64,000 bases of DNA from Candidatus Thermodiscus eudorianus (GTDB lineage: Archaea; Thermoproteota; Thermoprotei_A; Sulfolobales; Acidilobaceae): contig WAOW01000004.1 of assembly GCA_015521085.1 (NCBI GenBank), forward strand, positions 186,001 through 250,000. Direction: 5' to 3'. The translations under genes were made by a program, and so were the position numbers. Below, one piece after another: positions 22,813 to 46,850 of the stretch; position 1 is the first letter of the stretch, and each line of letters starts with the position of its first letter. A model generated the notes under the pieces. The model saw only the letters and a program-made list of their open reading frames with translations. It was not told the DNA's origin and did no database searches.

Positions 22813-25638
22813 TTGGCTAGGCCAGGCAAGCCAGCCACGATCTTGCTACTAACGCTACTCACGGCTAGTATGCTGTTACCCGGCTCTGTGCATGTACTTG
22901 CATATCTGTCGATAACGCCGCCGACGTTAACGGAACTGTGGGAGAGGAGTCTAGGGGGCCTAGTTTCCAGTGTTTCCTGGGGTCCTGGTGTCGGCTTGGC
23001 TGTTGGAGCTAGTCATGCTGTGATTGTACTTAACGGTAATGGTAGTGTCTTGTGGGAGGGGAAGTTAGCCGAGGACGTATTAAGTGTCTCTTGGAGTCAT
23101 AATGGAGACAGACTGGTTGTTGGAGTAGGCTGGTTTAGCTGGTTAGGCAATAGCTCTATCACTAATAGCACTCATGGCCGCATTATCGTGTTCAGCAACA
23201 CTAGCAAAAAGGTATGGCAGTCCATGGATTTATACGGCTATGTCTATAGCGTTTCCTGGAGCCCTAAAGACGACAGGCTAGCTGTTGGAGCCGGTTCTAG
23301 AATAATAGTCTTCAACAGCAGTGGTGGCGTCTTATGGGAGAAGAGCCTGGGCAGCAACGTCTCAAGCGTTTCCTGGAGCCCTAGCGGGGATAAACTCGTC
23401 GTTGGCGGCGACTTCAGAAAAATTGCTGTCTTCGATGTCAAAGGTAATCTTCTGTGGGAGAAGGGCACAGGAGGCAGGGTCTCAAGCGTTTCCTGGAGCC
23501 CTAGTAATAGCGAGATAGCGGCTAGTATTGGTAACAGGATTATCGTTTTCAACGCCGAAGGTGGAGTCTTGTGGGAGCAGAGTCTGGGTAGCAGCATTCG
23601 TAGTGTTTCTTGGAGTCCTGGCGGAGATATGCTAGCCGTCACCGCTGGAAACTACGCCATAGTCTTCGACAGTAGCGGTAACCTGCTGTGGAAGAGTAGA
23701 AATCTAGGCGGGTTGGCGGAAAGTATCTCCTGGAGCCCGGAGGGCAGTAAGTTAGTCGTCGGAGTTGATAACAGGGTTGTTGTTCTCTATGCCTCTTTCG
23801 GCGTCATCCAGGTCTCCGGGGTCCCCGGTAGTGTTGTGAGCGTATCGGGACCGGGTGGAAGCGGGGAATACAAGATACCAGGAAACCAGACACTAACACT
23901 ATACGCAACACCAGGAAACTACACGATAAACTACAAACTACCACAACCAAACAACTACATAGGTACAAGATCGCCATTTAGCGGATCGTTAAAGACTGAT
24001 GTCAAGCCCGGTAAGAGGCATGTAATCAATCTGCCTAGCTATGGTGACCTGCTTGCACGGCTTGAGTTGGCCGTTCCACCGTACAGTAGTGTGACGTTGG
24101 AGTCTGGGGCGGTTAAGAAGACGTTCTCCGCTGGAGGAGATGGGAAGCTGTTGCTGTGGCTGGATCCCGGGGCCTATAAGCTGACGGTAACCTACAAGGG
24201 GGCAACTGTGTCGAGGGATTTGAAGGTTTCGAAGGGCCAGTCGATAACCCTTAAGTTCGGGGAGCAGGACTTTGCCGCCCCCATAACCACTACGACAAGC
24301 AAGCCCACAACCAGCACGCAATCCCAGGCATCTGGAGCCACAATCCCACCAATAGCCACGACCACGTCACACACACTCTCGACGGCGACACCCGTAGAGA
24401 CGGCCGTCACGGTCGGGCCTACAACCACGATGGTGGCTAGAGGCGGCCTAGGAGGCTACACGCTCCTCCTAGGACTACTGGGGCTGGGAGGAGTCATGGC
24501 CGCTGTAATCCTGTTGAGGAGGAAGAGCGGTGGAGAGACGCTGCCTGGAGAGGCGCCTCCGCAAGCCCCACCACCGCCGCCTCCGCCAACGCCAGAGTCC
24601 GCTAGCAGCAGCCAGTCTGTCGAGACGGGTAGAGTGTCTCATACAGTTGATACCGTTGAGGGACCCTCCACGCCAGTAAAGACGCCAGCGTCCACCCCTG
24701 TGGGGGGCTTGAAGTCCGTGGCCAGCTTGCTTGGCCGAGAACTCCAGGGCTTTAAGAGCGTGGAATCCTGTAGGGGGAGTTATAGTGTGGTGCTACCCGA
24801 GTCGCTGGCGCCCCAGGGATTCGGCGGCAGCTGGGATTGTTGCAAGCTTGGTTGTGGTGGTTGGGGTTGTGCCTATCGCTGTAGGAGGAGCGGTGACTCT
24901 AGCGGGGAGTATGTTGTGTTCAAGGTGCCCCGCGGCTTGGAGGCTTTGATCGAGGAGGGCAGCTTCCTAACTATAGATGAGAGGTTGTTGAGGCGCGTTG
25001 TCAACGAGGCGAGCGTCGTCTCAAGGCTCAAGCATCCCCATGTACTGCGCCTCCTGGCTTATGGCGAGAAGCTCCCGCTCCTGGTCTACGAGTACGCCGA
25101 CATGGGTAGTTTGGACCAGCAGTTCGCCCTCGGCTGGAGCCCCAGCCTCAGGGACTCGGTGCTCGCCGCGTTGCAGCTTGGCGATGCTCTCCGCTATATC
25201 CACTCTCGGGGGCTGGTGCATGGGGACATCAAGCCCGGGAACATATTCGTTAGGGATGGTGTCGTCAAGCTTGGGGACTTCAGTAGCCTGGTGAGGCTCG
25301 TCACTATGACCAGCCGACACGCCCTCAGCTACACCCCCGGCTTCCGGGCTCCCGAGCAGGTGTTCAGCGACTTGAAGCTCCGCGCTGTCAGGGCTGGGCT
25401 TGAGAACAGGATAGACGTCTACCAGCTCGGGAATCTCCTGCTCTACATGATTTCGGGGGAGACTATTGACGGGGAGGAGGCGGCTGACGCTAGCAGGGTG
25501 GAGGAGGTGTTGCGTGGCGTGGAGCATCCCGTGCTCAGGGAGTTGCTTAGGAGGATGCTCTCGCTGGAGCCAGAGGAGAGGCCTAACATGGAGTATGTAG
25601 TGGTCAAGCTCTATGAGGTGTATGAGGGCCTCGGATAG
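22813..25638 (+). CDS. Transmembrane receptor Ser/Thr protein kinase with extracellular seven-bladed propeller
   Basis: A 941-residue membrane receptor kinase. Residues 1-30 are a signal sequence. Residues 40-335 hold seven repeats of about 40 residues with SVSWSPxGxxLVVG...IIVF...GxxLW, a WD40-like propeller. A beta-sandwich-like part (335-480) and a Thr/Ser-rich stalk (480-545) follow. The membrane helix is near 546-568, then comes a Pro-rich cytoplasmic linker. The kinase domain (about 670-941) is complete: glycine loop LGCGGWGCAY, VAIK-like YVVFKVP, helix C Glu in VVNEAS, catalytic loop LVHGDIKPGNIFV (HGD in place of HRD), KLGDFSS, and APE in FRAPEQ. It should therefore be active. It is the first gene of the 22.8-31.7 kb island and probably phosphorylates products of that island. 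Confidence 0.93.
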   Translation: MARPGKPATILLLTLLTASMLLPGSVHVLAYLSITPPTLTELWERSLGGLVSSVSWGPGVGLAVGASHAVIVLNGNGSVLWEGKLAEDVLSVSWSHNGDRLVVGVGWFSWLGNSSITNSTHGRIIVFSNTSKKVWQSMDLYGYVYSVSWSPKDDRLAVGAGSRIIVFNSSGGVLWEKSLGSNVSSVSWSPSGDKLVVGGDFRKIAVFDVKGNLLWEKGTGGRVSSVSWSPSNSEIAASIGNRIIVFNAEGGVLWEQSLGSSIRSVSWSPGGDMLAVTAGNYAIVFDSSGNLLWKSRNLGGLAESISWSPEGSKLVVGVDNRVVVLYASFGVIQVSGVPGSVVSVSGPGGSGEYKIPGNQTLTLYATPGNYTINYKLPQPNNYIGTRSPFSGSLKTDVKPGKRHVINLPSYGDLLARLELAVPPYSSVTLESGAVKKTFSAGGDGKLLLWLDPGAYKLTVTYKGATVSRDLKVSKGQSITLKFGEQDFAAPITTTTSKPTTSTQSQASGATIPPIATTTSHTLSTATPVETAVTVGPTTTMVARGGLGGYTLLLGLLGLGGVMAAVILLRRKSGGETLPGEAPPQAPPPPPPPTPESASSSQSVETGRVSHTVDTVEGPSTPVKTPASTPVGGLKSVASLLGRELQGFKSVESCRGSYSVVLPESLAPQGFGGSWDCCKLGCGGWGCAYRCRRSGDSSGEYVVFKVPRGLEALIEEGSFLTIDERLLRRVVNEASVVSRLKHPHVLRLLAYGEKLPLLVYEYADMGSLDQQFALGWSPSLRDSVLAALQLGDALRYIHSRGLVHGDIKPGNIFVRDGVVKLGDFSSLVRLVTMTSRHALSYTPGFRAPEQVFSDLKLRAVRAGLENRIDVYQLGNLLLYMISGETIDGEEAADASRVEEVLRGVEHPVLRELLRRMLSLEPEERPNMEYVVVKLYEVYEGLG
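23248..23503 (+). repeat. Intragenic nucleotide repeat in propeller blades 3-5
   Basis: The 19-base sequence AGCGTTTCCTGGAGCCCTA occurs identically at 23248, 23365 and 23485, about one blade (117-120 bases) apart. Neighbouring blades have the same protein pattern but more diverged DNA. This suggests recent duplication or conversion among blades. Confidence 0.75.
24658..24668. repeat. GAGGGWCCCTC palindrome inside the kinase gene
   Basis: GAGGGACCCTC in the stretch encoding the Pro/Ser-rich linker between membrane helix and kinase domain. Confidence 0.6.
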
Positions 25639-25764
25639 GCGCGTTCATCGCCCTGTTTTTGGCTCTTGTTCTCCTGCGAGCCCCGGAGGCCTGCGTGGCT
25701 CCTCGCACGGCGTATCATTGTTCGTCTGGCGGTCTAGGATCTAAGTGTTGTTTCTCCGTTTCCG

Positions 25765-25780
25765 GAAGATTTATTAATCT
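25765..25780 (+). promoter_or_regulatory. Possible TATA box upstream of the second island gene
   Basis: AGATTTATTAATCTCC lies 30-45 bases before GTG 25811 in the 172-base gap after the kinase gene, so the genes after the kinase may have their own transcript. Confidence 0.4.
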
Positions 25781-25810
25781 CCTCCGTTATCCTATCTAGT
25801 TGGGGTTTGG

Positions 25811-26344
25811 GTGGGTTTGTACTTGTTGATCGTCCGGTACGGCGGGGAGGCTGAGAGGAAGCGCCTGGAGTACGTGCTCGAACGCTTCAAGGATAGGGTT
25901 AAGACAGTCAAGCCCGGCGGGTCCGTGGTCCTAATCGACGGTGATCGTGAGGATGTTAAATTTTTATTAGAGGAATTGTTTTCCAGGCTACCCAGGGAGA
26001 ACGTGGCCTTGTACAAGCTGAGCGAGCCCGACGTAGAGGTCGAGGAGAGGCGCCGGGTCCTAGAGGTCGAGACCCGGAGCCCGGTGGAGGAGGTCTGGGG
26101 GGCTATCAGCTTGATCATGGCCAGGCTCAAGGGGAGCCTGGTCAGCGAGGTCCGCGGTAGCCGCGAGTACGTTGTCAGGCCCCGCGGCGGCTATGCGCGC
26201 GTCAAGATACACGTTTCTCCTGTTAGCGGGGGCGGTAGCCTCGTCCGTGTAGTCGTTGAGGGTTATGGGAGTGGGTTTGACCGGGTGGTTTCTGGCCTTG
26301 TAGATGAGTTGGGCTTGCTGGGGGTTGTGAGGCGTGTCGAGTAG
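25811..26344 (+). CDS. Island protein of unknown function, two small domains
   Basis: A 177-residue soluble protein. The first 75 residues form an alternating helix/strand unit (LYLLIVRYGGEAERKRLEYV, VVLIDGDREDVKFLLEEL). The last 95 residues run as helix, then strands (SREYVVRPRGGYARVKIHVS, GGGSLVRVVVEGYG), then a final helix. The order resembles a START/SRPBCC-like helix-grip fold, but only at pattern level. GTG 25811 and TTG 25817 are both possible starts. Its end overlaps the start of the 599-residue gene by 11 bases, so the two are coupled. An adaptor or ligand-binding role next to the kinase is an inference. Confidence 0.7.
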   Translation: MGLYLLIVRYGGEAERKRLEYVLERFKDRVKTVKPGGSVVLIDGDREDVKFLLEELFSRLPRENVALYKLSEPDVEVEERRRVLEVETRSPVEEVWGAISLIMARLKGSLVSEVRGSREYVVRPRGGYARVKIHVSPVSGGGSLVRVVVEGYGSGFDRVVSGLVDELGLLGVVRRVE

Positions 26345-28133
26345 TGGTGGCTGTGATCGGGAGTCTATCCTTGGCTTGGTGGATGTGATCCTACGGGAGG
26401 ATCTGGAGGGCCTGGCCCGCGGGTATAGTTTTGATGAGAGGCTGGAGTTTTGGAACGACTTGAAGGCCCAGTACAACCAGTACATTAGGGGGTGCGCGGC
26501 GCGGTTTAGCAGGGAGATTGACAGGCTTATACGTGGCAAGTTTAGGCTCGCGCAGTTGATGATCGCGGCCAGCTTCAAGGTTAATGGCGAGGAGCTCCCG
26601 GAGGTTACTGGTAGGTTCTCCGACGAGGAGTACCAGGTTTTGTTCGATCTTGAGGAATTGAAGGAGCTCGACTTCCTCAGCGTTGACGACCTGGTCGAGT
26701 TCATCGAGAGGAGGGAGGGGAAGGTGTATGAGATGGTCAAGAAGTACTATGAGAGGGGCTATCACATGCTCGACACGAAGTGGACCAACATCATGGGGGC
26801 CCTGGCCCTTGCTATGGCTGAGCGCTACAAGGAGAGGAGGCTCAAGATAGAGGAGGCGGTGGTTAAGTACATCAGGAAGAAGCCCCTCACCATATTCATA
26901 AGCGAGATAGAGGAGGCCGTGAAGAAGGCCCTCGAAGCGGGGGAGGCGAGGAGAGAGGCCTCCCAGACCATCGAGAAGATAGCGGGCGAGATAGACAAGA
27001 TAGAGCCGGTAATCGCGGGTAGCGGGGGCATAGAGGAGGCCATAGAATCCAGGGAGAAAGCCCTCACAATGATCGAGAAGCTCCTCAAGGAGCTAGACGA
27101 GACCAGGGGCAAGCTGAGGGAGAAGGAGGCCGAGCTGGAGAGGCTAGCAAGCCAATACACCGAGTCATCCAGCGCCAGGGAGATAGTCGAGGCAGAACTC
27201 GAAGCCCTGAAAGGCCGGGTACGCGAGCTCGAAGCCCTACTAGAAGAGTACAAGGCCGCCGTCGCCACGCTCAAGGCCGAGAAGGAGGCCCTAGCCGAGA
27301 GGCTGGAGGAGTTGAAGGCGGGCCTCGAAGGCAGGGGCGGGGGCAACCTGGTCAGCAGGGAGGAGGCATGGGCGCTGGAGAACGCGCTGGTGGAGCGGAT
27401 AGTAAGGAAGCTGGCCGAGGGAGCAGTGGTCTATGACCCCGTGAGGGGCGAGTCCCGCGAGGTGAAATGGAACAGGAGGGTCTACTACAGCCTCCACGGC
27501 GACGGCAAGCCCCAGGGCAGGGGAGTACAACTCCAGTCCCTCAGGGGCGTCTTCAAGAAGAGGAAGGAGCTGGTGGTAGACGCGGTGACGCTAGTCCATA
27601 GGGACTCCTTCGACGAGAAGGGGTGGGACCAGGAGCCCGTCGGGCTAGGAGAGGTCATGGAGGTGGTCGAGTCCAGGCTGGAGGAGGCCGGCCGGGGCGG
27701 CTACTACCATATACTGGTGTTGAGTAGCCCCACCGGCTTCACTGAGAAGGCCAGGATGTTCGTTGAGAGCAACGACTACCTGGTAAACCTAGCCTCCAGG
27801 CACGTGACAGTCTACCTAGTAGACCCCGTCAAGGGCCAGCTCTACTACAATTCCAGGGACGAGGCGGCCGAGGCCAACAAGCACCTAGCAGACCCCAGGC
27901 TGCCCGAGGAGAGGGTGAAGAGGGTGCTGGAATACCTGAGGTCGGAGGAGGCCAAGGAGAAGGCCGTGCTGATCGGGGGCGGCTCGCCATTCCTACTGGC
28001 AGAGGATATAGCCAAGGCCACCGGCGAGGACCTGGAGATAGTGGCCAGGGCCATGGCCAGGGCCGAGGAGGAGGGGCTGGGCCGGGTGATGGTGACTAGC
28101 GACGGGCTGAAGGCCCTCTTCTACAAGCACTAG
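26334..28133 (+). CDS. Large coiled-coil island protein with an unrecognised C-terminal domain
   Basis: A 599-residue cytoplasmic protein I cannot place in a family. Residues 1-210 are helical with an acidic middle (FSDEEYQVLFDLEELKELDF). Residues 215-340 form a long charged coiled coil with heptads (LLKELDETRGKLREKEAELE). Residues 350-530 are an alpha/beta domain containing YYHILVLSSPTGFTEKARMF and HVTVYLVDPVKGQLYYN, which could be Rossmann-like or nuclease-like but shows no sure catalytic motif. The last 60 residues resemble a winged helix (FLLAEDIAKATGEDLEIVAR). GTG 26334 follows GTGAGGC. Its place between the kinase and the ESCRT-like genes suggests a scaffold. Confidence 0.75.
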   Translation: MSSSGGCDRESILGLVDVILREDLEGLARGYSFDERLEFWNDLKAQYNQYIRGCAARFSREIDRLIRGKFRLAQLMIAASFKVNGEELPEVTGRFSDEEYQVLFDLEELKELDFLSVDDLVEFIERREGKVYEMVKKYYERGYHMLDTKWTNIMGALALAMAERYKERRLKIEEAVVKYIRKKPLTIFISEIEEAVKKALEAGEARREASQTIEKIAGEIDKIEPVIAGSGGIEEAIESREKALTMIEKLLKELDETRGKLREKEAELERLASQYTESSSAREIVEAELEALKGRVRELEALLEEYKAAVATLKAEKEALAERLEELKAGLEGRGGGNLVSREEAWALENALVERIVRKLAEGAVVYDPVRGESREVKWNRRVYYSLHGDGKPQGRGVQLQSLRGVFKKRKELVVDAVTLVHRDSFDEKGWDQEPVGLGEVMEVVESRLEEAGRGGYYHILVLSSPTGFTEKARMFVESNDYLVNLASRHVTVYLVDPVKGQLYYNSRDEAAEANKHLADPRLPEERVKRVLEYLRSEEAKEKAVLIGGGSPFLLAEDIAKATGEDLEIVARAMARAEEEGLGRVMVTSDGLKALFYKH

Positions 28134-28144
28134 CGGGGGTGGGT

Positions 28145-28711
28145 ATGGTGTCGAGGCTCGGGGACCTGGACACGAGGGACCTCCTGGAGAAGGCCTATGA
28201 GAGGCTACTACCAGCGCTAGGCTACCTCCACAGCAGTCCAGCCGGCTTCGCAGCCAGCGTGATAGTATTCGCCACATGGGTCTACAGGAGGAGCGCCTCC
28301 GACAAGAAGAGGGCAGCCGTAGAGCTCGACAGGGACTATGAGAGGCTCGTGAAGCTACAGGCCAGGATAAGGGAGCTGGAGGAGAGGAGGAGGCTCCTCC
28401 AGAGGCTCCTGGAGAAGGTCGAGGGCGAGAGGGACAGGCAGAGGATTGAGAGACAGCTAAAGCTGGTTGAGGCCGAGCTGGATGGGCTATACGAGGAGTA
28501 CGACCTCCTGGAGCTGAGGATAGCGGCTGTGGAGAAGCTGGTGAGGCTCAAGGAGGAGGGAGTCATCAAGAAGATCAAGGACGTGCTCGACGAGATAGAA
28601 GAGGGCAAGGCCGACAAGGCCCTCTACGACGTGCTACGCGCCCTAGAAGAGAGGTGGAGGAAGAGGGAGCTAACCCGGAACGTGCTGGAGAGGATAATAG
28701 AGGAGGGCTAG
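28145..28711 (+). CDS. Membrane-associated ESCRT-III-like helical protein
   Basis: A 188-residue protein. A short hydrophobic segment (GFAASVIVFATWVYRR, about residues 32-47) could sit in or on the membrane. The rest is a charged helical body (ELEERRRLLQRLLEKVEGER, then a second long helix) ending in LVRLKEEGVIKKIKDVLDEI and further helices. The body parallels the protein encoded at 28827 segment by segment, including an LxRLK...G[VI]xxKIK[DN]V core. This long hairpin plus short helices is the ESCRT-III/CdvB plan. No direct sequence match is claimed. ATG 28145 is used; GTG 28151 also has a good ribosome site. Confidence 0.7.
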   Translation: MVSRLGDLDTRDLLEKAYERLLPALGYLHSSPAGFAASVIVFATWVYRRSASDKKRAAVELDRDYERLVKLQARIRELEERRRLLQRLLEKVEGERDRQRIERQLKLVEAELDGLYEEYDLLELRIAAVEKLVRLKEEGVIKKIKDVLDEIEEGKADKALYDVLRALEERWRKRELTRNVLERIIEEG

Positions 28712-28826
28712 CCGGGAGGACCCCCCACACCCGGCGGGGAGGGATGCCCTGCTGGGGTGGAAGGGGGTCCCTCCAATGCCTGGAGGGTCCCTCGACGTGT
28801 AGGAGTATGGGAGGTGTATGTGAGCT
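28712..28826. other. Intergenic spacer inside the island with two palindrome copies
   Basis: This 115-base spacer separates the two ESCRT-like genes. It has one near copy (GGGGGTCCCTC, 28764-28774) and one exact copy (28783-28793) of the recurring motif, then a strong Shine-Dalgarno GGGAGGTG 10 bases before the next ATG. Confidence 0.55.
28783..28793. repeat. GAGGGWCCCTC palindrome between ESCRT-like genes
   Basis: GAGGGTCCCTC, 34 bases before the start codon of the 206-residue ESCRT-like protein. Confidence 0.65.
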
Positions 28827-29447
28827 ATGGATATCGGGGGTAAGATTAGGGGCTTCATCCGCCGTGGGGACTGGATTGACAAGGTGAAGGTCGAGGAGCT
28901 TGAGAGGGAGCTGATCAAGCTGGACAACCAGATTAGCTTGGCGAGCAAGGAGATCCAGAAGCTTGAGAAGGCGAAGAAGGAGCTCTTCCAGGAGGGCGTC
29001 GGTAAGAGTGACGTGGAGAAGCTGCTCCTGGCCGAGAAGATAAAGGATCTAGACGCCGAGATCAAGATGAAGCTCCGCGAGTACAATAGGTTAATGAAGC
29101 AGAGGAGGGCCCTGTCAAACCTGATCAGGCTGAAGAAGTGGGAGGCTAGGCTCAAGGAGACCGGTATATGGGAGAAGATCAAGAACGTGGAGCCCGAGAA
29201 ACTAATGGAAGCCCTCTCCAACGTGCAGTTCGAGGACCAGATGTTCGAGACCAACATAGACAAGATAAACGAGATACTAGGTAGGGAGGCGACCCAGATA
29301 GAGGTAGACGAGGGCACCAAGGAGATACTGGAGCTGTGGGAGAAGGTGGAGAAGAGCGAGCTGTCACCAGAGGTCGTCGAGGAAGAGCTGTCGGTGAAGC
29401 TGGAGCCGGAGGAAGAGAAGAAGGAGAAGGAGAAAGAAACCCTCTAG
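28827..29447 (+). CDS. ESCRT-III/CdvB-like helical protein
   Basis: A 206-residue soluble protein with a basic N-terminus (GGKIRGFIRRGDWIDKVK), a long helical hairpin (about residues 22-105), short helices containing LIRLKKWEARLKETGIWEKI, and a later acidic part. The order matches Snf7/CdvB proteins: basic helix 1, long helix 2, short helices 3-4, acidic tail. The tail ends in the highly charged EPEEEKKEKEKETL, where CdvB proteins usually carry an MIT-interacting motif. The AAA gene with an MIT-like domain follows directly. These facts together support an ESCRT-III-like polymer subunit acting at the membrane; none alone is proof. A strong ribosome site (GGGAGGTG) precedes ATG 28827. Confidence 0.7.
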   Translation: MDIGGKIRGFIRRGDWIDKVKVEELERELIKLDNQISLASKEIQKLEKAKKELFQEGVGKSDVEKLLLAEKIKDLDAEIKMKLREYNRLMKQRRALSNLIRLKKWEARLKETGIWEKIKNVEPEKLMEALSNVQFEDQMFETNIDKINEILGREATQIEVDEGTKEILELWEKVEKSELSPEVVEEELSVKLEPEEEKKEKEKETL

Positions 29448-29475
29448 CACGGAGCCAGCCGCCGAGAGACTATAG

Positions 29476-29487
29476 ACGCTAAATAAC
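29476..29487 (+). promoter_or_regulatory. Possible TATA box for the AAA ATPase gene
   Basis: ACGCTAAATAAC lies about 20-30 bases before ATG 29506, which fits a leaderless transcript. The sequence just before the ATG is also AT-rich (TTTTATTTAATAT) and could be read as a competing, closer TATA element. Confidence 0.4.
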
Positions 29488-29505
29488 ATGAATTTTATTT
29501 AATAT

Positions 29506-30771
29506 ATGACTAGCGTGGATAAGGGGTGGGGGACCTTATCACACATAGACACGACGGGATTCCTAAACCAGGAGATAAAAAAGGCCAAGAAGCGGATGGA
29601 GGCAGCGCTAGCCAAGGGAGACTACTACACCGCGTCAATACAGGCCAAACGAGTATCAGAACTACTACGAGAGCTAGCCAAGGCCAGGAAATGGGGTCAA
29701 AAAGACCTACTGAGACTAGCAGAAGAATACAGCCAGCTAGCCAAGAGGCTATCCCAGGGAGAACCCCCAGCCAAGCCCATACCAAGGATACCAGCAAGCC
29801 AGCAGCCCACGAAGCCAACCCAAACACCGAGCCCCAAGCCCCAGGCCACGGGGGAGATCGAGGCCCTGGACTCAGAGTTCGACAAGCAGGCCGAGGCCCT
29901 AATAGCTAGAGCCGACATCACATGGGACGACATAGCCGGGCTTGAGGAGGTCAAGAGGAGCCTCGTAGAAGCGATATTCTACAGCATAGCCAGGCCCGAG
30001 GACCCCGGTGTTAGGGTGGAGCCCCCCAGGAGGTTCCTACTCTACGGGCCCCCCGGCACAGGGAAGACCATGCTGGCCATGGCTGCGAGCAACATGCTAG
30101 GCGCCACCTTCATAAACGTCAGCGTTGACAAGGTGCTTTCAAGGTATGTAGGCGACGCCCCCAGGATGATTAGCGCCGTCTTCAGGCTCGCCGTGAGGAG
30201 GGCTCCCAGCATAGTGTTCTTCGACGAGGTCGAGACCCTCATGATGAAGAGGGACACGGGCAAGGAGGCTGCCACAGGCCTAGTCCAAACCCTACTAACA
30301 GAGCTGGACGGCTTCAAAACCAAGAAGCTAGACAAGCCGGTCATAGTCATCGCTGCGACCAACAAGCCCTGGCTACTAGACGAGGCGATACTATCAAGGT
30401 TTGAGAAGAGGATATACGTGCCCCCACCCGACAAGAAGGCGAGAGAAGCAATATTCAGGCTAAACCTGGAGAAGAAGGGGTTCAAGCTGGAAGGGATAAC
30501 CTACGAGGAACTAGCCGACAGGACCGAAGGCTACAGCGGGAGGGACATAGCAAACGCCTGTAGGGAGGCGATAATGATGATGCTGAGGAGGGCCAACCCC
30601 GACATATACAAGCAACTCACAATGATAAAAGACCCGTCCAAGCTCAAAGACGTACGATACAAGATACTACCGATAAAGAGGGAGGAAATACTACAAGCAC
30701 TAGAAAAAGTGAAACCACCGATAACCCCGGAGGAGCTAGAGAAATACAGGGAATGGGCCCGGCAACACTAG
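29506..30771 (+). CDS. Vps4/CdvC-like AAA ATPase with N-terminal MIT-like domain
   Basis: A 421-residue AAA ATPase of the meiotic clade that in cells disassembles ESCRT-III polymers. Residues 17-85 form a three-helix MIT-like unit (AALAKGDYYTASIQAKRVSE and LLRLAEEYSQLAKRLSQG). A Pro/Thr-rich linker (87-112) joins it to the AAA domain, which opens with ITWDDIAGLEEVKRSLVEAI. Walker A is GPPGTGKT near residue 180, Walker B IVFFDEVETL near 237, and the second region of homology follows (AATNKPWLLDEAILSRFEKR). The C-terminal small domain and final helix are present. It is not beside cdvA/cdvB genes but next to two ESCRT-III-like genes, so it is probably a paralogue devoted to this island. Confidence 0.9.
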   Translation: MTSVDKGWGTLSHIDTTGFLNQEIKKAKKRMEAALAKGDYYTASIQAKRVSELLRELAKARKWGQKDLLRLAEEYSQLAKRLSQGEPPAKPIPRIPASQQPTKPTQTPSPKPQATGEIEALDSEFDKQAEALIARADITWDDIAGLEEVKRSLVEAIFYSIARPEDPGVRVEPPRRFLLYGPPGTGKTMLAMAASNMLGATFINVSVDKVLSRYVGDAPRMISAVFRLAVRRAPSIVFFDEVETLMMKRDTGKEAATGLVQTLLTELDGFKTKKLDKPVIVIAATNKPWLLDEAILSRFEKRIYVPPPDKKAREAIFRLNLEKKGFKLEGITYEELADRTEGYSGRDIANACREAIMMMLRRANPDIYKQLTMIKDPSKLKDVRYKILPIKREEILQALEKVKPPITPEELEKYREWARQH

Positions 30772-30792
30772 CCAATAACGGGGGCGGCCCCG

Positions 30793-31746
30793 ATGGGGAT
30801 GAAGGAGATAATACTCCTATGGCAAGCCAAAGACAAGCTACACCAATACAAGCTAAAGCCAGGCAAAACCTACTACATAGGAAGACCCACAATGGAAACA
30901 CTACAACGACACCCAGACCTATCCCCATTCGGAGTCTACATAATACCAGAAGACCCAGACGAGAAACCACACTACACGGGATACGACACAACACTAGTCT
31001 CCCGCCTAGACACGCGGATAGCAATAACCAGGGAAGGTGACAAGATTAAGATAAAAAACCACGGCCCCAAGGGCACGGGAGCCAAAAACCCTACAATCAT
31101 AAACAACCAAATACTAGCCCCAGGAGAAGAAAAAGAGATAACACTAGACGACACGGGCAACATAAGCCTAGAACTAACAAGCCAGGGCCCAACATTCACA
31201 ATAGCAGTACGGGAACAAGAAAGAACCAAGATGAGGCTCGAAACGGGGACACCGATAACCCTGCCAAAGACGCTGGCGGAACAGTTGGTGAAGAGGGGAC
31301 TGGTGAAGGAGGCGGTAGACCTGGGAGACACCATGGAGATAGTGATAAAACCCGAAGCCGGGGACAGCCTCCTAATAGAGCTACTATCAGAACTACTAGG
31401 CACCCTAAGGATAGTAAAGACATCAATGGAGAAAATAGCCCAACAACCATCCAAGGAGAAACAAAGGGAAAAACAGAAACAGGGGCTCCAGAGGATAGAC
31501 ATGATACTATCAGACATATACATGACCCTAGACAGGGACCCGGGACAAGCACAAATCCAATTCCAAAGGCTAGAGAAGATAAAAGAATACGGAGAACTCA
31601 TAGAAAACCTAGGAGAACAAGCCAAAACCACCTACGAAAGCCTCAGAATGCTAATGCACTGGTCAGTGCAATCCCATAAGGAGGAGATAAAACAACAAAT
31701 AATACTACTAAGAGAGATCATAAAGGAAAAGATACAACTACAATAG
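30793..31746 (+). CDS. FHA-domain protein with C-terminal coiled coil
   Basis: A 317-residue soluble protein. Residues 1-130 have the FHA pattern: a first strand, then YYIGRP (the GR motif), a loop of 35 residues, LVSRLDTRIAI (the SR motif that binds phosphothreonine; the usual following His is Asp here), KIKIKNHGPKGTG and IINNQILAPGEEKEI. FHA domains bind phosphothreonine, so this is the natural reader for the kinase encoded at 22813. Residues 130-180 form an insert with TPITLPKTLAEQLVKRGLV. Residues 185-317 are helical and probably coiled coil. The codons are rich in A (CTA, ATA, AAA), unlike the first island genes. It lies 21 bases after the AAA gene, so they are cotranscribed. Confidence 0.8.
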   Translation: MGMKEIILLWQAKDKLHQYKLKPGKTYYIGRPTMETLQRHPDLSPFGVYIIPEDPDEKPHYTGYDTTLVSRLDTRIAITREGDKIKIKNHGPKGTGAKNPTIINNQILAPGEEKEITLDDTGNISLELTSQGPTFTIAVREQERTKMRLETGTPITLPKTLAEQLVKRGLVKEAVDLGDTMEIVIKPEAGDSLLIELLSELLGTLRIVKTSMEKIAQQPSKEKQREKQKQGLQRIDMILSDIYMTLDRDPGQAQIQFQRLEKIKEYGELIENLGEQAKTTYESLRMLMHWSVQSHKEEIKQQIILLREIIKEKIQLQ

Positions 31747-32266: not shown

Positions 32267-33163
32267 TTATGGTATGTTGCATTCTCGGGTTGTGTCTGCC
32301 TTGTGTATTTTTGTTTTGGCTAGGTATTCTATTAGTTCTTCTATTATTTTCTTGGTGTTGGATGCTACGATTACTAGGTCGTATGGGCGTTTTCCTCTCC
32401 TCTCCTCCTCTATCCTTTCCTTGATCTCGTCTCCGCGTTCTGCTTCGTGTCGTGGAGTGTAGTATACTACCACAAATTTTGTGTCTGGGCGGCATTCTAT
32501 TATTTCGTCGAGTTCAGAGCTGAATTCCTTGGCCCTCTTTATCAAATCCATGCGGACACCAGTCCTGATCTGGATAGCAACTTTTAGATTGTCAGGGTCT
32601 GGTGGGATTGCGCAGTCGATCTCCCGGGTTTTGTTGTTGCATGTGATCTTGATTTTCCCGGCTGGTATGCCGCATTTGTTTAGGATGTTTATTATTTCTT
32701 TTTCGATTTTCTTTCCCCTGTAGTGTCTTTTCTGGTGTTCCTCCCAGTTTTTATAGAACTTGTAGAGGACTGTCTCCATGTGTAACGGGTGTTTTAGGTT
32801 TTCCATGACGGCTTCTATGAACTTGTCTAGTTTGTCTTGGTCGATTTCTCTTCTCAGGCTGTAGACGTTCTTCAGCCCGTAGAGCCTGTCGAGTTCTCTG
32901 ACGCTGAATCCGCATATCATCATGAAGAAGGGAATCATTACGTGGGGGTTCCTCTTTATCATTGTTTCTATGTCTGTCTTCGTTGCTTTATCGAATCTTA
33001 CTAGTAGAGTGTCTTTGTCGAATAAGTTGGAGGTTGCTAGTATTTTTCCTATTCTGAGTGTCATCTCGTCGAGCTCGTTGTAGAGTATTGGTAGCTCGGC
33101 GTAGTTTGGGCGTGGGATCTTGGCTAGTATCGATTTAACCAGGTCTTCGTGCTCGTTCTTCAA
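32267..33163 (-). CDS. Putative restriction endonuclease of a type II system
   Basis: A 298-residue protein encoded directly behind an adenine methyltransferase; its TTG start overlaps the methyltransferase stop by 4 bases. N-terminal 150 residues are helical. The middle has the order of a PD-(D/E)xK nuclease: a helix (GKKIEKEIINILNKCGIPAG), strand KIKITCNN, TREIDCAIPP, then VAIQIRTG. The third motif would be QxR rather than ExK, a known kind of variation that makes activity less sure. A later strand KFVVVYYTP and helix-strand-helix follow. Identity as the cognate endonuclease is inferred from position. The codons are richer in T and A than in the core genes, in keeping with transfer. Confidence 0.65.
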   Translation of the reverse strand: MKNEHEDLVKSILAKIPRPNYAELPILYNELDEMTLRIGKILATSNLFDKDTLLVRFDKATKTDIETMIKRNPHVMIPFFMMICGFSVRELDRLYGLKNVYSLRREIDQDKLDKFIEAVMENLKHPLHMETVLYKFYKNWEEHQKRHYRGKKIEKEIINILNKCGIPAGKIKITCNNKTREIDCAIPPDPDNLKVAIQIRTGVRMDLIKRAKEFSSELDEIIECRPDTKFVVVYYTPRHEAERGDEIKERIEEERRGKRPYDLVIVASNTKKIIEELIEYLAKTKIHKADTTRECNIP

Positions 33164-34608
33164 GGGCTTCTTCCCTCCACGTACCTGTAGAGTTTTCTGC
33201 TGGCTGTTGATTCTTCGTAGAGATTATCTGGTATGGGTAGTTTCCTTATGGTGTGGGATTGCATTCTTATGTAGCCGTTAGCGGCTTTCTGAGAGTGGCT
33301 TTGTATCCATTCCTTTACGTCGTTGCGTTTTAGGTATTCGAGTAGCTTGGGGATTGCCCCTGGGTTCTTGGGGACTAGGTAGTAGGTGTTGTGTCGTGGG
33401 ATTATGGTTCCGGTGAGGTCTGCGTAGAATACGGGTTCCTTGGCTAGGTCGGGCCATAGGATTTTTGGCTTGAGCAGGGTGTTCATGGGCGGGTCTTCGT
33501 GGAACGCGTACCACTTCTTACCCTTCTCCTGGACGGCCCTCCTCTCCATTAGTGTTTTCCTTTGGTTGGCTAGGTAGTCTAGTAGGGGTTTTGCCTGGGC
33601 CTCGTCGAGGAGCCTTCCGTCATCGTCATACGGCACTAGGATAATATTGGGTAGCTTTTCCGGGTCTATCGGGTTGAAGGGCTTGAACATGGCGAGCTCT
33701 CTGCCGCTGACTGAGGGGTACGCGTATCTCTCCAGGTTGCTGGGTAGCTTCTCCCGGGGGATTATGAAGACTTTGTCTCTGCCAGTCGCGATCCCCGGGC
33801 TTATCCTTACCGCGACCTCTTCTAGCCTGTGCCTATACTTCATTATCTCCCTGTTTTCTAGCTTGTGGAGTGCTATCGTTTCGAGCCAGGAGCTCCCGTC
33901 AACGGGTAGGTTTAGCGCGAGCCTGCTCCCGTCCCTGAGGATTATCCTCGTCTTCCCCTGGGTTTTTGATTTTTCTATGACCGTGATGACTGGGTAGGCT
34001 AGGATGCCGCCGAAGGCGTCCTCGTCGATGAACTCTATCTTGCATACGCATTGCCTTGCCAGTAGCCTGCGGAGCTCCCTGGCTGAGAGGGTGTAGAGGT
34101 ATTTCTCGGGGGTTACGAAGACCAGCCTGCCCCCGGGCTTGAGTAGCTCAAGTGCTTTCTCGAAGAAGAGCATGTAGAGGTCGAAGCGCCCCCGGGCGCT
34201 CCTAAACATGCGCCTATAGATCCTCCTCTTACCGGCATCCATTTTCTCGTAGGAGATGTATGGAGGGTTACCGATAACGTAGTCAAAGCGCCCCAGTGTC
34301 TCCGTGTCGAGTAGCAGGAAGTCCGCGTTGACGATCCTCACACTACCGTATCCGCTGAATGCTCTTGATGTAAGCCCGGCGAGCCCGGGATCAACCTCGA
34401 CACCAACAACCTCGGGCAACCCATACCCTCTAGACCTGCAATACTCTATAACCGCCCTGATGAAGACCCCACGGCCCGAGCCAGCATCCAACACCCTAGA
34501 CCCACGGCCAGGCGGCTTACCATGGAACAGCTCGGCGACCATCCTCCGGGCCAGCCAATAGGGCGTTTCAACCCTCCCCTCATACCCCCTTACAACGGCA
34601 CTCCCCAT
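33160..34608 (-). CDS. N6-adenine DNA methyltransferase
   Basis: A 482-residue gamma-type DNA methyltransferase, like M.TaqI. The SAM motif is VLDAGSGRGVFIRAVIEY, motif IV is YVIGNPPYISYEK (NPPY, methylates adenine N6), and LKPGGRLVFVTPEKYLY follows. The C-terminal 220 residues form a target-recognition domain (SGRELAMFKPF, RHNTYYLVPKNPGAIPKLLE). ATG 34608 is chosen because GGAGGT lies 11 bases upstream; GTG 34632 would lengthen it. A TATA-like GATATAAAC lies on this strand near 34730. It most likely protects against the endonuclease encoded next to it. Confidence 0.9.
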   Translation of the reverse strand: MGSAVVRGYEGRVETPYWLARRMVAELFHGKPPGRGSRVLDAGSGRGVFIRAVIEYCRSRGYGLPEVVGVEVDPGLAGLTSRAFSGYGSVRIVNADFLLLDTETLGRFDYVIGNPPYISYEKMDAGKRRIYRRMFRSARGRFDLYMLFFEKALELLKPGGRLVFVTPEKYLYTLSARELRRLLARQCVCKIEFIDEDAFGGILAYPVITVIEKSKTQGKTRIILRDGSRLALNLPVDGSSWLETIALHKLENREIMKYRHRLEEVAVRISPGIATGRDKVFIIPREKLPSNLERYAYPSVSGRELAMFKPFNPIDPEKLPNIILVPYDDDGRLLDEAQAKPLLDYLANQRKTLMERRAVQEKGKKWYAFHEDPPMNTLLKPKILWPDLAKEPVFYADLTGTIIPRHNTYYLVPKNPGAIPKLLEYLKRNDVKEWIQSHSQKAANGYIRMQSHTIRKLPIPDNLYEESTASRKLYRYVEGRSP

Positions 34609-34632
34609 AGCCCTCCAAACCTCCACTCTCAC

Positions 34633-41126: not shown

Positions 41127-44100
41127 TTGAATAAAAAACCCCTCAAGGCAATCCTCGCACTCCTACTAATAGGCATGTTCATAATACCAGCAGGATCCGC
41201 ATTAGCCAACACAAGCACAGGAGGACAAGTCAAAGCCACAGCAAGCCTGCCAGAAGACCTAAAAGGCATTCTATCAAAATACGGAATCAACCTACCCGAC
41301 GAGGCTGTAAAGGTCCTATCGGGAGGCGACAGCGTGAAAATCAACAATAGAGGAGTATACCTTAACAGGCACTACATAGGACAGGACAAAGAGCTACAGC
41401 CAATCCGCACGCCTGATCTAACCGCTAGGGCTCCAGAGACCTATAGGGCGAAAATACTCCTGCCGACAGGAGACACTGCAATTGTAAACTACAACGAGAA
41501 GGACGGGTTTACCGTCAACATCAAGGGAGACCACAGGATAGCCAGGGAATACTACCTAGCCTCGCTGCCAAACCACGTATACCTGATCCCAGCCGGGATC
41601 GACATGAAGAAACTCGACATTAACTTATTCGACATAAAGTACCTAGCCGAGAACGACTACGGCCAAGAGATCCCAGTGATACTAAAGTACAAGGCCCCAG
41701 GCAACGACCCAGACACTATAAAGGCGATGGGCGACGCGATAGCCAACACCCTAAGATCGATGGGAATAGAGGTGAGACACGTCTACAAGCTCATCCCAGC
41801 AATAAGCCTAACCCTAAACAAGGACAACGCAGCAGACTTCCTAAAATGGGCCGAGAGTAATCCCAGCGTAGAGAAAATCTACCTAGACGCCAAGGTAAAG
41901 GTAAACCTCAACGATAGCGTGCCACTAATCGGAGCCCCAGAGGCGTGGAACCTAGGCTTCAATGGCTCCGGGGTAAACATAGCGATACTAGACACCGGGG
42001 TCGACTGGACCCACCCTATGCTAGACGACTTCGACAACGACCCCACGACGAATGACACGAAGGTCATAGTCAAGAAGAGCTTCGTCGAGTACCCAAGCTC
42101 CGAGGCCAACGACCCAATGGACTACATCGGCCACGGAACCCACGTGGCGTCGACAGCGGCTGGCACTATATGGAACGCGACGGTACCCGACTCTGGCGGG
42201 ATAAGGACTCTGATCAACGCAACCTACGACACCCCTGTATACTCAAATCTAACACTATACTTAGAGGATCTAGAGGAGAACGACGAGATATACTATGTTT
42301 ATGAGTTCGTAGTCGTTGGAAGCAGCGACGGGCGACTATACAACTACACTGGAGAGTCAAACCACGTGATCGGATCCGCCCTAAACAGCACCTTCGCATA
42401 CGATGCCGACGGAGACAACCAGACAGACCTCTTCAAGCACATCTACATATGGGCGTTCTCAAGCGATGACGACACGCTAGCGGCACTGCTAACAGGGTTT
42501 AACACGAACACAGGCAAGAACGACGTCCTAGTGGGCTATGATCACCTCGGCCCAGGCGTGGCCCCAGGGGCATACATATGGGCCGTAAAGGTCCTCAACA
42601 AATACGGCTGGGGCTATACCTCATGGATCATAAACGGCATAGAATTCGCCGCCCTAGGACCAGACGGCACTCCAAACACCGGCGACGAGGCCGATATAAT
42701 CAGCATGAGCCTCGGCGCCGATATACCAAGCGACGGCACAGACCCGCTAAGCTTAGCAGTAGACTACGCATCAAGCCTAGGAGTAACCGTTGTAGTAGCC
42801 GCTGGCAACGCCGGGCCAGGATACGGGACAGTCGGAATACCAGCATCTGCCAGATCAGCCATAACTGTGGGAGCGGTAGACAAAAGCCTAACGCTAGCCT
42901 GGTTCAGTAGCCAGGGCCCGACCCTCGATATGAGGATTAAGCCCACCGTGGTAGCCCCTGGCGTCAATATACTCGCTGCACTACCCGGTAACAGCTGCGC
43001 TGCACTATCCGGTACTAGTATGGCTACTCCGCACGTCTCAGGGAGCGCGGCACTACTAATACAAGCCTACAAACAGAAATACAACATGACGCCAACGCCA
43101 CAACAAGTCAAAGACCTACTAGCATTGACTGCCATGGATCTAGGATATGATGTATTCCACCAGGGCCTGGGGCTCGTGCAGGTCCCAGACGCTATAAACG
43201 CGTCACTCATAGTAGACCCCGTGACGAGCAACTACATTGGAACGCCCGGAGACCTTGTCAACATGACCTTCACGATAACAAACCTGGCATCGGCCAGCAA
43301 GAACCTCACCGTAACAGTGCTCGTAGAGGACTTCTTGGCCTCTACAGTAGTGGCTTCAACCAGCAGCCAGTTAATGCTCGGTCCGCTGAACTCGACCCCG
43401 TACAACGTGTTATTGAACACTACTGGATTCAGCAAGGGCCTCTACATCCTATACCTAACTGTACACGATGATACAGAAAACAAGACGTACCGGGCTCTAG
43501 CCTCCATAGCGCTATTGAACAAGGTGGTAGTCAACCTGTACTACGATGACGGGTCTCCTGGCAGCTACGAGGAGGTAATCCTCTTCAAAGACAGCTATAC
43601 CAGCCCGGTTGAAGCGTCGCTATTCCTCGGGCTAAGGCTCTCAAACGAGAACGGCACCCTAGTGCTATACCTGCCAGACGGCTTGTTCCACCTCATATGG
43701 ATACCCTGGGATACATACGAGCCAACATACGTCGTGGCTGATGTTAGCGTGAGCAACGATACTGTAGTGGACATGTATGAGAACTCCACGATGCCGTTAA
43801 CCTTCGACGCCGGCTTCACGGCCAAGTACCTGGAGGACTTCTACCTCATAGGGAAGAGCGACATAACTATCGGAAACTATACGGGCTCCATCAGCATAGG
43901 CCACCTAGGCTATCTAGACGAGACGACCAGCCCGCCCGTAGTCTACGTGACGCCAACCCAGCTTGAGAGCGTGTGGAGGGTCAAGTACGTACCCGGCAAC
44001 GAAGATGCTGCGTCTGCGAGCACGTTCTACGATATAATAACGCCGCTAGACCAGACCCTCACCCCAATAACAATACAGCCAGACTATAACACGACCGCCT

Positions 44101-46850
44101 CAAGAATAACCGCCTATGGAACAGACGGTGGAGCATACAATGAAACCTACACCAGCCAACACGGATTCAAGCGTGGAACACTGATGTGGGGCTTCTCAAT
44201 GGCATTCCTACTACCCATCACCTCTCCGTTAGAGAGGCTTGAGGTGTTGACAGGAAACGCATATTATATAGGGATGTATGACATCGACGATATAGGTCTA
44301 TGGTTCGTCGACGACGACATGAAGTTCTACGCGGCTGGTGAAAACGCGTTCTGGGGCTATGGCCTGCTACCACTACAGGCTCCACACGTCAAGTTGATTC
44401 CAGGCTATGCCGGCTTCGACTACATCTATACCGAGCTTGGCATGGACTCTCTAGGAAACCAGATCTGGTTCGACTATGGATACGTAGAGATCTACTTCAA
44501 CATGACGCCACTCTACATGGGAGCAGCTGGCGACTTCATCTACATGGCCATCCCAGCGACGCCCGGGACATTAACAATCTACGTCGAAGACGCCTTCATA
44601 TACCCATACCTGTCATACTATACCTACGGCCTGGCGCGATACACGGCAACCGGCTCCTCGCTCGAAGGATTCAACGGGTTCCACATACTATTTGACCGAT
44701 ACATGCTAAATGGCACCATAGAGGCTGACGAGTACAACCAGGTAACTGGCAGGCTATACGTGCCTGGCACATACAGTAACATAACAGGATTATCCATGAG
44801 CATAGCTGACTCCGACCTCAACACAGCAAACGCGAACCTAACCGAAGTAGAGCCTGGAGTATACAGGTTCACCGTAGCTATACCGTCCGGCTTCATCCTC
44901 GGCCCGGTAAGCATCTATCTAAACGTGACCACGGCCAACTTCACAGAGACCAGATGGTTCGGCACACTAGACGCCTTCGCCGTAAAAGGAATCCCCATAT
45001 ATACTGTCGGGCCGGAGGGTAGCGGGGCAGACTTCACCAGTATAGCAGACGCAGTCGAGGCGGTGCCTCCAGGATCCATAATAATGGTCTACCCTGGAAC
45101 ATATTATGAGCCAGTGATAGGCATAACCAAGCCCTTGACCATCAAGGCCATGGACCCGAGCAACCCACCGGTAGTGAACGGCGTGGTGCCATTCCTAGTA
45201 TCTAAGACCGGCAAGGTAGGCCTCTACAACATGATAATCAACGCCAACTCTATAGGAGTACTATCCTACGAGGGCATGGTAGACCTAGAGAACGTCACCA
45301 TAAACTCGGGATCAGTCGGCCTATTAGCCTCCAAGTCAAGCATAGAAGCCAACAACCTCGGCATAACAGGGACCGCGAGCGACGCGATAGGCCTATACCA
45401 GTCTAATGCAACCATCAAGAACGCCCTAGTCACGGGTGCAGGTGGAGCAGGGCTATACGCATACAAGAGCACCGTAGACGTCATGGACTCAAGCTTCACC
45501 AGCGGAATGTGGGGTGTAATGCTCCAGGCATCGAATGCGATGCTCAAAGGCGTACTACTGGCTGGCAACACCAATGAGGGACTAGTGGCCCTGGAGGACT
45601 CCCAGGTAGAGGTCTACGACTCCACGGCCACGGGCAACAACATAGGCGTGTTCGCGAGAGACCAGTCCAACATGCTGGTAGAGGATACCAGCATCACCGG
45701 AAACGCCTTCGCCGGGATAGCTACAAGCGAGGAAGCAACGCTAAACGGAGTAGAAGTATTCGTGTCCGACACTCTGAATGGAGCCATACTCTACAACGGG
45801 CCAAGCTCCACATCGTTCTCACTACTCCTACACAACTCGACAATATCCAACTGCATCTTCGGCGTAGTCACAACCAGGCAGTCGCAGGCAATGCTCGACA
45901 ACGTCACCATACAGAACTCCACGACGCTAGCGATACTAGCAATAGAATCCTCAAGCGTGCTAGCAGCCAACAGCGTGATAAACGGTAGCGACTGGGCCGG
46001 CGCGGCAGCCTACGGGAACGCCTCCATAATAGTGGAGGACTCGTATATAACAGGGACCGCGTGGGAGGCGCTACTAGCCTTCGACAACTCGGCTGTAGAA
46101 GTCAGCAGCTCGGAGATCCACAACACCGGGAGAGGAGGCGGAGTCCTCGGCAACGCGCTGCTCTCGGTAGAGGCTACTAAGATAATGAACACACTCTACG
46201 AGGGCATAATAACATCTGGTAACGGCAGGCTGGTGATCTACGACTCCCTGATAGACGGGTCTGGCACGCTAGGCATACTCTCATTCGACACGAGCACCGT
46301 GACGGCCAGGAACGTGACTATAGCCAACCCAGGATGGGCTGGCATAGGACTATTCCACAACTCACAGGGCACCATACAGAACGTTGCAGTACTCAGTAGC
46401 CTGGCGAACGGTATAATCCTGCTAGACAATGCCAGTGCCACGATAACCAACTCCACCCTGGCAGGCAACTCCTGGGGCATAATGGTCTGGGGCACGAGCA
46501 CCGCCACGATACACTACACGCTCATAGAGAACAACACGTGGGACGGGCTAGCCGTCTTCGAGCGAGCCAGTGTAACCATAACCAACAGCACCATAGTATG
46601 GAACGCCTACGGCATATCAGCTTATGGCAACGCTACGGTAGTTGCCCACTACGACTCCATCTACGGTAACGTCTACATAGGTGCACACGCCGAGGAGTCC
46701 TCTTACATAAACGCTACCGAGAGCTGGTGGGGAGACCCGTCAGGCCCGAACGCGCCTGGAGTCAACCCGGGAAGCGGTGACCTGGTGACCGGGAACGTGG
46801 ACTTCACCCCGTGGCTGGCCTCGCCTCCACAAGCGCCAAACCCAATATAA
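41127..46850 (+). CDS. Giant secreted subtilase with C-terminal parallel beta-helix
   Basis: A 1907-residue extracellular protease of the S8 (subtilisin/pyrolysin) family. Residues 1-28 are a signal peptide; a propeptide-like part runs to about 265. The catalytic triad is clear: Asp in NIAILDTGVDWTHP (about 288), His in GHGTHVASTAAG (about 337), Ser in LSGTSMATPHVSG (about 629), with the oxyanion Asn in VVVAAGNAGPG (about 558). A long insert (345-470) separates His and Asn. After beta-rich domains, residues 1300-1890 form repeated beta-helix coils (PGTYYEPVIGITKPLTIKA onward). No membrane anchor is seen, so it is either free or held to the S-layer, as STABLE protease is. Confidence 0.93.
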   Translation: MNKKPLKAILALLLIGMFIIPAGSALANTSTGGQVKATASLPEDLKGILSKYGINLPDEAVKVLSGGDSVKINNRGVYLNRHYIGQDKELQPIRTPDLTARAPETYRAKILLPTGDTAIVNYNEKDGFTVNIKGDHRIAREYYLASLPNHVYLIPAGIDMKKLDINLFDIKYLAENDYGQEIPVILKYKAPGNDPDTIKAMGDAIANTLRSMGIEVRHVYKLIPAISLTLNKDNAADFLKWAESNPSVEKIYLDAKVKVNLNDSVPLIGAPEAWNLGFNGSGVNIAILDTGVDWTHPMLDDFDNDPTTNDTKVIVKKSFVEYPSSEANDPMDYIGHGTHVASTAAGTIWNATVPDSGGIRTLINATYDTPVYSNLTLYLEDLEENDEIYYVYEFVVVGSSDGRLYNYTGESNHVIGSALNSTFAYDADGDNQTDLFKHIYIWAFSSDDDTLAALLTGFNTNTGKNDVLVGYDHLGPGVAPGAYIWAVKVLNKYGWGYTSWIINGIEFAALGPDGTPNTGDEADIISMSLGADIPSDGTDPLSLAVDYASSLGVTVVVAAGNAGPGYGTVGIPASARSAITVGAVDKSLTLAWFSSQGPTLDMRIKPTVVAPGVNILAALPGNSCAALSGTSMATPHVSGSAALLIQAYKQKYNMTPTPQQVKDLLALTAMDLGYDVFHQGLGLVQVPDAINASLIVDPVTSNYIGTPGDLVNMTFTITNLASASKNLTVTVLVEDFLASTVVASTSSQLMLGPLNSTPYNVLLNTTGFSKGLYILYLTVHDDTENKTYRALASIALLNKVVVNLYYDDGSPGSYEEVILFKDSYTSPVEASLFLGLRLSNENGTLVLYLPDGLFHLIWIPWDTYEPTYVVADVSVSNDTVVDMYENSTMPLTFDAGFTAKYLEDFYLIGKSDITIGNYTGSISIGHLGYLDETTSPPVVYVTPTQLESVWRVKYVPGNEDAASASTFYDIITPLDQTLTPITIQPDYNTTASRITAYGTDGGAYNETYTSQHGFKRGTLMWGFSMAFLLPITSPLERLEVLTGNAYYIGMYDIDDIGLWFVDDDMKFYAAGENAFWGYGLLPLQAPHVKLIPGYAGFDYIYTELGMDSLGNQIWFDYGYVEIYFNMTPLYMGAAGDFIYMAIPATPGTLTIYVEDAFIYPYLSYYTYGLARYTATGSSLEGFNGFHILFDRYMLNGTIEADEYNQVTGRLYVPGTYSNITGLSMSIADSDLNTANANLTEVEPGVYRFTVAIPSGFILGPVSIYLNVTTANFTETRWFGTLDAFAVKGIPIYTVGPEGSGADFTSIADAVEAVPPGSIIMVYPGTYYEPVIGITKPLTIKAMDPSNPPVVNGVVPFLVSKTGKVGLYNMIINANSIGVLSYEGMVDLENVTINSGSVGLLASKSSIEANNLGITGTASDAIGLYQSNATIKNALVTGAGGAGLYAYKSTVDVMDSSFTSGMWGVMLQASNAMLKGVLLAGNTNEGLVALEDSQVEVYDSTATGNNIGVFARDQSNMLVEDTSITGNAFAGIATSEEATLNGVEVFVSDTLNGAILYNGPSSTSFSLLLHNSTISNCIFGVVTTRQSQAMLDNVTIQNSTTLAILAIESSSVLAANSVINGSDWAGAAAYGNASIIVEDSYITGTAWEALLAFDNSAVEVSSSEIHNTGRGGGVLGNALLSVEATKIMNTLYEGIITSGNGRLVIYDSLIDGSGTLGILSFDTSTVTARNVTIANPGWAGIGLFHNSQGTIQNVAVLSSLANGIILLDNASATITNSTLAGNSWGIMVWGTSTATIHYTLIENNTWDGLAVFERASVTITNSTIVWNAYGISAYGNATVVAHYDSIYGNVYIGAHAEESSYINATESWWGDPSGPNAPGVNPGSGDLVTGNVDFTPWLASPPQAPNPI

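Follow-up and report, generated by a model that had tools for sequence, protein, structure and literature searches.

A kinase- and FHA-associated ESCRT-type operon beside Cdv in an Acidilobaceae archaeon

Does a member of the Thermoproteota that carries the Cdv machinery also maintain a second ESCRT system under the control of a protein kinase? This question is raised by seven genes in the window, i.e., the whole 64,000-nt stretch of DNA analyzed here, to which all gene coordinates below refer. In Makarova et al. (2024; PMC10936438), a "Main" ESCRT system consisting of Vps4, ESCRT-III, arCOG09748, arCOG08177, and STK/STP is described together with "Halo_FHA" ESCRT systems, phosphorylation-dependent sorting is already proposed for such systems, and TACK archaea are inferred to have lost most of the sorting components. 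The first-pass annotation regarded the present operon as a candidate undescribed system, a claim that was abandoned because of these named types. The operon instead is likely to encode a second ESCRT system of its Acidilobaceae host, related to the Main type, joined by an FHA protein of the Halo_FHA type, separate from Cdv, and perhaps engaged in kinase-controlled budding or sorting. With regard to sequence homology, its membership among the archaeal ESCRT systems is held with high confidence.

Gene content of the operon

The seven genes are as follows.

22813..25638, + strand: K, membrane receptor Ser/Thr kinase (Pfam Pkinase and WD40, transmembrane segment)
25811..26344, + strand: P2, two-domain protein of 177 aa (homology to a Thermococcus 172-aa ESCRT-locus protein)
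26334..28133, + strand: CC599, coiled-coil/winged-helix protein of 599 aa (homology to a Thermococcus 607-aa protein)
28139..28711, + strand: H1, ESCRT-III-like helical hairpin with an N-terminal hydrophobic segment (AF2; hhalign to H2)
28827..29447, + strand: H2, ESCRT-III-like protein with a conserved C-terminal tail (homology to a Thermococcus pair; AF2)
29506..30771, + strand: AAA, euryarchaeal-type Vps4-family ATPase with an N-terminal MIT-like domain (Pfam, tree, profiles)
30793..31746, + strand: FHA, N-terminal FHA domain (diverged copy) and helical C-terminus (Pfam matches in the family; PDB FHA profile)

All seven ORFs were found intact on the same strand where the first-pass annotation had placed them, although the start of H1 is possibly at 28139 (GTG) rather than at 28145. 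The overlaps and short gaps that it had described were also recovered: the gap between K and P2 is 172 bp, P2 and CC599 overlap by 11 bp, and the subsequent gaps are 5–11 bp (CC599 to H1), 115 bp (H1 to H2), 58 bp (H2 to AAA), and 21 bp (AAA to FHA). Neither Rfam families nor tRNA genes were detected in the window. Immediately 3′ of the operon, on the – strand (32267–34632), a type II DNA methylase (Eco57I/TaqI-like) is adjoined by a 298-aa gene that is possibly its restriction partner, and the GC content there is reduced (about 0.49).

The kinase K is a membrane receptor with intact kinase motifs, as had been proposed. Briefly, it comprises a signal peptide, an external WD40-type β-propeller that is also detected by Pfam, a transmembrane segment at about residues 550–568, and a Pkinase domain at residues 678–930 (Pfam 7e-26), in which the catalytic motifs HGDIKPGN and DFS are conserved. 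K is the sole PF00069 kinase found in the host genome (95% complete; E 1e-5), and no PP2C phosphatase was found in the same genome. According to PMC10936438, a membrane-associated STK accompanies Main-type systems in many genomes, as does the STP phosphatase, which is not described as universal. At related loci, a pattern search identified neighboring kinases with an intact HxDxKPxN motif (L012, L050, L053, L054, L055, L057, and L059). Elsewhere in the window, a 1907-aa subtilase with right-handed β-helix repeats (41127–46850, + strand) is followed on its 3′ side by a 257-aa ORF without a Pfam match and a PMT_2 membrane glycosyltransferase, and further 3′, at 50659, by a WD40 propeller protein that resembles the K ectodomain in kind.

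Relation to the Main and Halo_FHA systems

The closest comparison is provided by the Thermococcus peptonophilus plasmid NZ_CP014751.1, in which a Main-type locus is arranged as 172 aa–607 aa–198 aa–201 aa–STK–Vps4–PP2C. P2 matches the 172-aa protein (profile E 1.7e-37 in a small protein set; hhalign 99.7%), and CC599 matches the 607-aa protein over its full length (profile E 1e-70, likewise in a small protein set; hhalign 100%). Because of these profile matches, the proteins that the first-pass annotation had called simply a two-domain and a 599-residue coiled-coil protein are homologs of two Main-type components. We infer that P2 is arCOG08177-like and CC599 arCOG09748-like, the arCOG numbers being assigned from descriptions in PMC10936438. 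In that source, the arCOG08177-type protein is described as an inactive Cas2-like domain with a helix-grip domain (Cas2-like/TBP folds). CC599 consists of an N-terminal helical region, a coiled coil, a globular domain, and a C-terminal winged helix, and the last of these matches the winged helix of CdvB (hhalign 89.6%, E 2e-6), a relationship likewise reported for arCOG09748 (PMC10936438).

Both loci contain Vps4, two ESCRT-III-like genes, proteins of the arCOG09748 and arCOG08177 types, and a membrane STK, and the order P2–CC599–H1–H2, followed by the ATPase, is common to the two. By contrast, the Thermococcus kinase has Ig-like repeats and PCI in place of the WD40 ectodomain of K, and K is located at the opposite end of the operon. 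Furthermore, PP2C is part of the Thermococcus locus and missing from the genome of the window's host, the window has an additional FHA protein and an H1 with a probable membrane anchor, and its gene set occurs in Thermoproteota, alongside Cdv.

The FHA protein links the operon to the second named type. The first-pass annotation considered its FHA motif intact. The window copy retains the signature elements GR, SR, N, and T but is diverged, with D in place of H and NP in place of NG, and no FHA domain is called in it by Pfam. The assignment is carried by the family, in which 12 of 14 members match Pfam FHA (best 3e-16) and whose profile matches PDB FHA domains at 1e-8. As in the window, the FHA protein of Halo_FHA systems (arCOG13166) is located beside Vps4/ESCRT-III and kinases; however, the likeness of the window protein to haloarchaeal Vps4-linked FHA-like proteins is modest and confined to the FHA domain (hhalign 72%), and the Halo_FHA protein carries a CdvA-like C-terminus (PMC10936438).

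Literature searches turned up no paper on such a system in Thermoproteota, although a crenarchaeal member may be among the "several other archaea" of PMC10936438. What is probably new relative to that study is a complete kinase/FHA-type ESCRT set beside Cdv in Thermoproteota, where it infers loss. Probably also new are the position of K as the only PF00069 kinase detected in its genome, the likely membrane anchor of H1, and a sister variant that lacks both the ATPase and the probable ATPase-binding tail of ESCRT-III.

Separation from Cdv and distribution among relatives

The ATPase has a Pfam AAA match of 3e-36 with AAA_lid_3 (the Vps4-type lid) and matches Thermococcus Vps4 at a profile E of 8e-107 in a small protein set. 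Its MIT region scores 98.6% against euryarchaeal Vps4 and 66% against CdvC (hhalign). The first-pass reading of a Vps4-type ATPase with intact AAA motifs and an MIT-like N-terminus is therefore well founded. In a tree of 38 rows, among which the euryarchaeal rows are few and the Chloroflexota row is long, the window-type, Thermococcus, haloarchaeal, and one Chloroflexota Vps4 form one group (100/99), whereas CdvC, including that from the same genomes, forms a separate group (100/100). An extra copy of Cdv is rejected by this tree. Within it, the crenarchaeal window-type ATPases constitute a clade (100/97) distinct from that of the euryarchaeal and bacterial rows sampled (98/90), and a recent transfer from the Thermococcus plasmid is therefore unsupported.

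At a separate locus, the host genome also has CdvB beside CdvC, plus a further CdvB paralog. The window set has in common with the CdvA/B/C system of TACK archaea a Vps4-family ATPase and a CdvB-related winged helix; it differs from that system in the clade of its ATPase, in H1 and H2, which are not recognizable as CdvB, and in its patchy occurrence in addition to CdvB/CdvC. One relative, G033, carries two distinct CdvB–CdvC pairs (L132:8521-10582 and L133:9136-11152), whose CdvCs match different references at 72% and 84%; the assembly is either a mixture of genomes or contains a genuine duplication.

CC599 orthologs are distributed patchily, being found in 19 of the 214 genomes of the host's order, the two named relatives belonging to the Acidilobaceae like the host, and in 12 of 398 genomes sampled across the phylum. 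The cassette P2–CC599–H1–H2–AAA (type A) occurs in 11 genomes of five families of the order, a count in which several loci are cut by contig ends and one (L057) is rearranged; an FHA gene is usually nearby and a Ser/Thr kinase often. Because the same set recurs in these genomes, the clustering is not due to chance, and the genes stay together among relatives. A second cassette, CC599–H1–H2–FHA–K (type B), lacks P2 and the ATPase (L053–L056 and L060, the last cut off after FHA) and corresponds to one CC599 clade (93/99). Both types are present in G017 and G084, and G033, which has type B only, contains just CdvC-type Vps4 enzymes among the ATPases examined there. L061, L062, and L064 make up a third CC599 clade (100/100) of greater divergence, in which CC599 is located beside an H1-like gene and no dedicated ATPase is present in the stretch read.

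These data bear on two other explanations. The module might be an accessory of Cdv, in which the kinase and FHA protein determine when the cell divides and the additional ESCRT-III proteins are incorporated into the Cdv ring; the host indeed encodes CdvB/CdvC, K is its lone detected PF00069 kinase, and type B loci might use CdvC in the place of an ATPase of their own. However, a search of 40 relatives recovered CdvC in 36, whereas the module is present in a minority only, so the module is not needed for division in general, and its ATPase is not CdvC-like in the tree, rendering this explanation unlikely. Less probable still is control of virus egress or defense, the latter also suggested in the first-pass annotation, in which kinase signaling and membrane remodeling would act against infection beside a restriction–modification pair. 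The patchy distribution, the lower-GC methylase and putative restriction genes directly 3′, and the homologous locus on a Thermococcus plasmid are compatible with such a role, whereas PADLOC yields generic kinase/AAA matches only, leaving the suggestion without backing, and no defense genes were noticed at homologous loci in an unsystematic look.

H1, H2, and a proposed mechanism

Pfam Snf7/CdvB matched neither H1 nor H2, direct comparison with CdvB detected nothing (hhalign under 1%), and their identification as Snf7/CdvB by Pfam or profile thus fails. By contrast, H2 matches the T. peptonophilus ESCRT-III pair (profile E 2e-25 and 7e-16 in a small protein set; hhalign 99.8%, E 4e-28), and H1 matches H2 (hhalign 92%, E 5e-7), through which alone it connects to the Thermococcus proteins. 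An α1–α2 hairpin is predicted by AF2 in both H2 (residues 22–56/62–104, pLDDT 76.6) and H1 (residues 54–91/95–137, pLDDT 65). In Foldseek, CdvB2, CdvB, CHMP2A–CHMP3, and Vipp1 are near the top for H2, and Asgard ESCRT-IIIB and Vipp1 for H1, with E-values that are not significant (best ESCRT-III E, 0.18–0.19). The predicted hairpins agree with the two ESCRT-III-like helical proteins of the first-pass annotation, and the expected similarity to CdvB/Snf7 was not recovered; the assignment therefore rests on the homology to the Thermococcus pair, accompanied by weak fold matches. The least probable explanation, that H1 and H2 are plain coiled-coil scaffolds of a non-membrane complex disassembled by the ATPase, accords with the missing Snf7 and CdvB matches and the weak fold E-values but not with the strong homology of H2 to a pair located where PMC10936438 reports ESCRT-III, nor with the ESCRT-III and Vipp1 structures among the best PDB folds.

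The N-terminal hydrophobic segment of H1 is a probable membrane anchor that the Thermococcus pair lacks; of 15 members, 13 exceed the hydropathy threshold in this segment, and the window copy falls just short of it. H2 ends in a conserved tail, ELSPExVEExLxVKxE (about residues 176–195), which is present in all eight members with an ATPase at the locus and in none of five at loci without one. Since the tail occurs only alongside the ATPase, it suggests a putative Vps4-binding (MIM-like) segment; the correlation counts as one evolutionary event because type B forms a single clade.

A chain from kinase through FHA protein and ESCRT-III/Vps4 to a membrane output can be proposed with roughly even confidence. 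The extracellular propeller of K would sense a ligand or the state of the envelope, and K would phosphorylate Thr residues of either the cargo or one of the system's own components, whereupon the FHA protein may bind phospho-Thr and nucleate assembly. By homology, P2 and CC599 might form an ESCRT-I/II-like bridge, with the winged helix of CC599 touching the ESCRT-III layer, whereas membrane-anchored H1 and soluble H2 would polymerize on the membrane. In agreement with the co-occurrence of ATPase and tail, the MIT domain of AAA may bind the H2 tail and so bring the ATPase to the polymer, which it would remodel or recycle. Rather than division, the chain would probably serve to bud vesicles or to sort membrane cargo that has been phosphorylated.

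More tentatively, an ancestral kinase/FHA sorting ESCRT may have been kept, or gained very early, by Thermoproteota beside Cdv, contrary to the published loss in TACK, with one branch (CC599–H1–H2–FHA–kinase) working without a dedicated Vps4 and having also lost the Vps4-binding tail. If so, a division ESCRT and a second, kinase-controlled one would operate in the same small crenarchaeal cell, which would bear on the evolution of sorting ESCRT and contradict the inference that TACK archaea retained a reduced Cdv alone. With a single PF00069 kinase in the genome, phosphoproteomics could directly test whether ESCRT is under phospho-control, and the ATPase-less variant provides a natural test of what needs Vps4.

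PMC10936438 reports no ESCRT cassettes in bacteria. An ESCRT-like cassette was nonetheless observed on plasmid NZ_CP128401.1 (L071:1-4655) of Candidatus Chlorohelix allophototropha (Chloroflexota). It encodes two helical proteins, which the H2 profile matches at E 3e-14 and 1e-3, together with a Ser/Thr kinase and a Vps4-type ATPase (35% over 95%) whose N-terminus is MIT-like.
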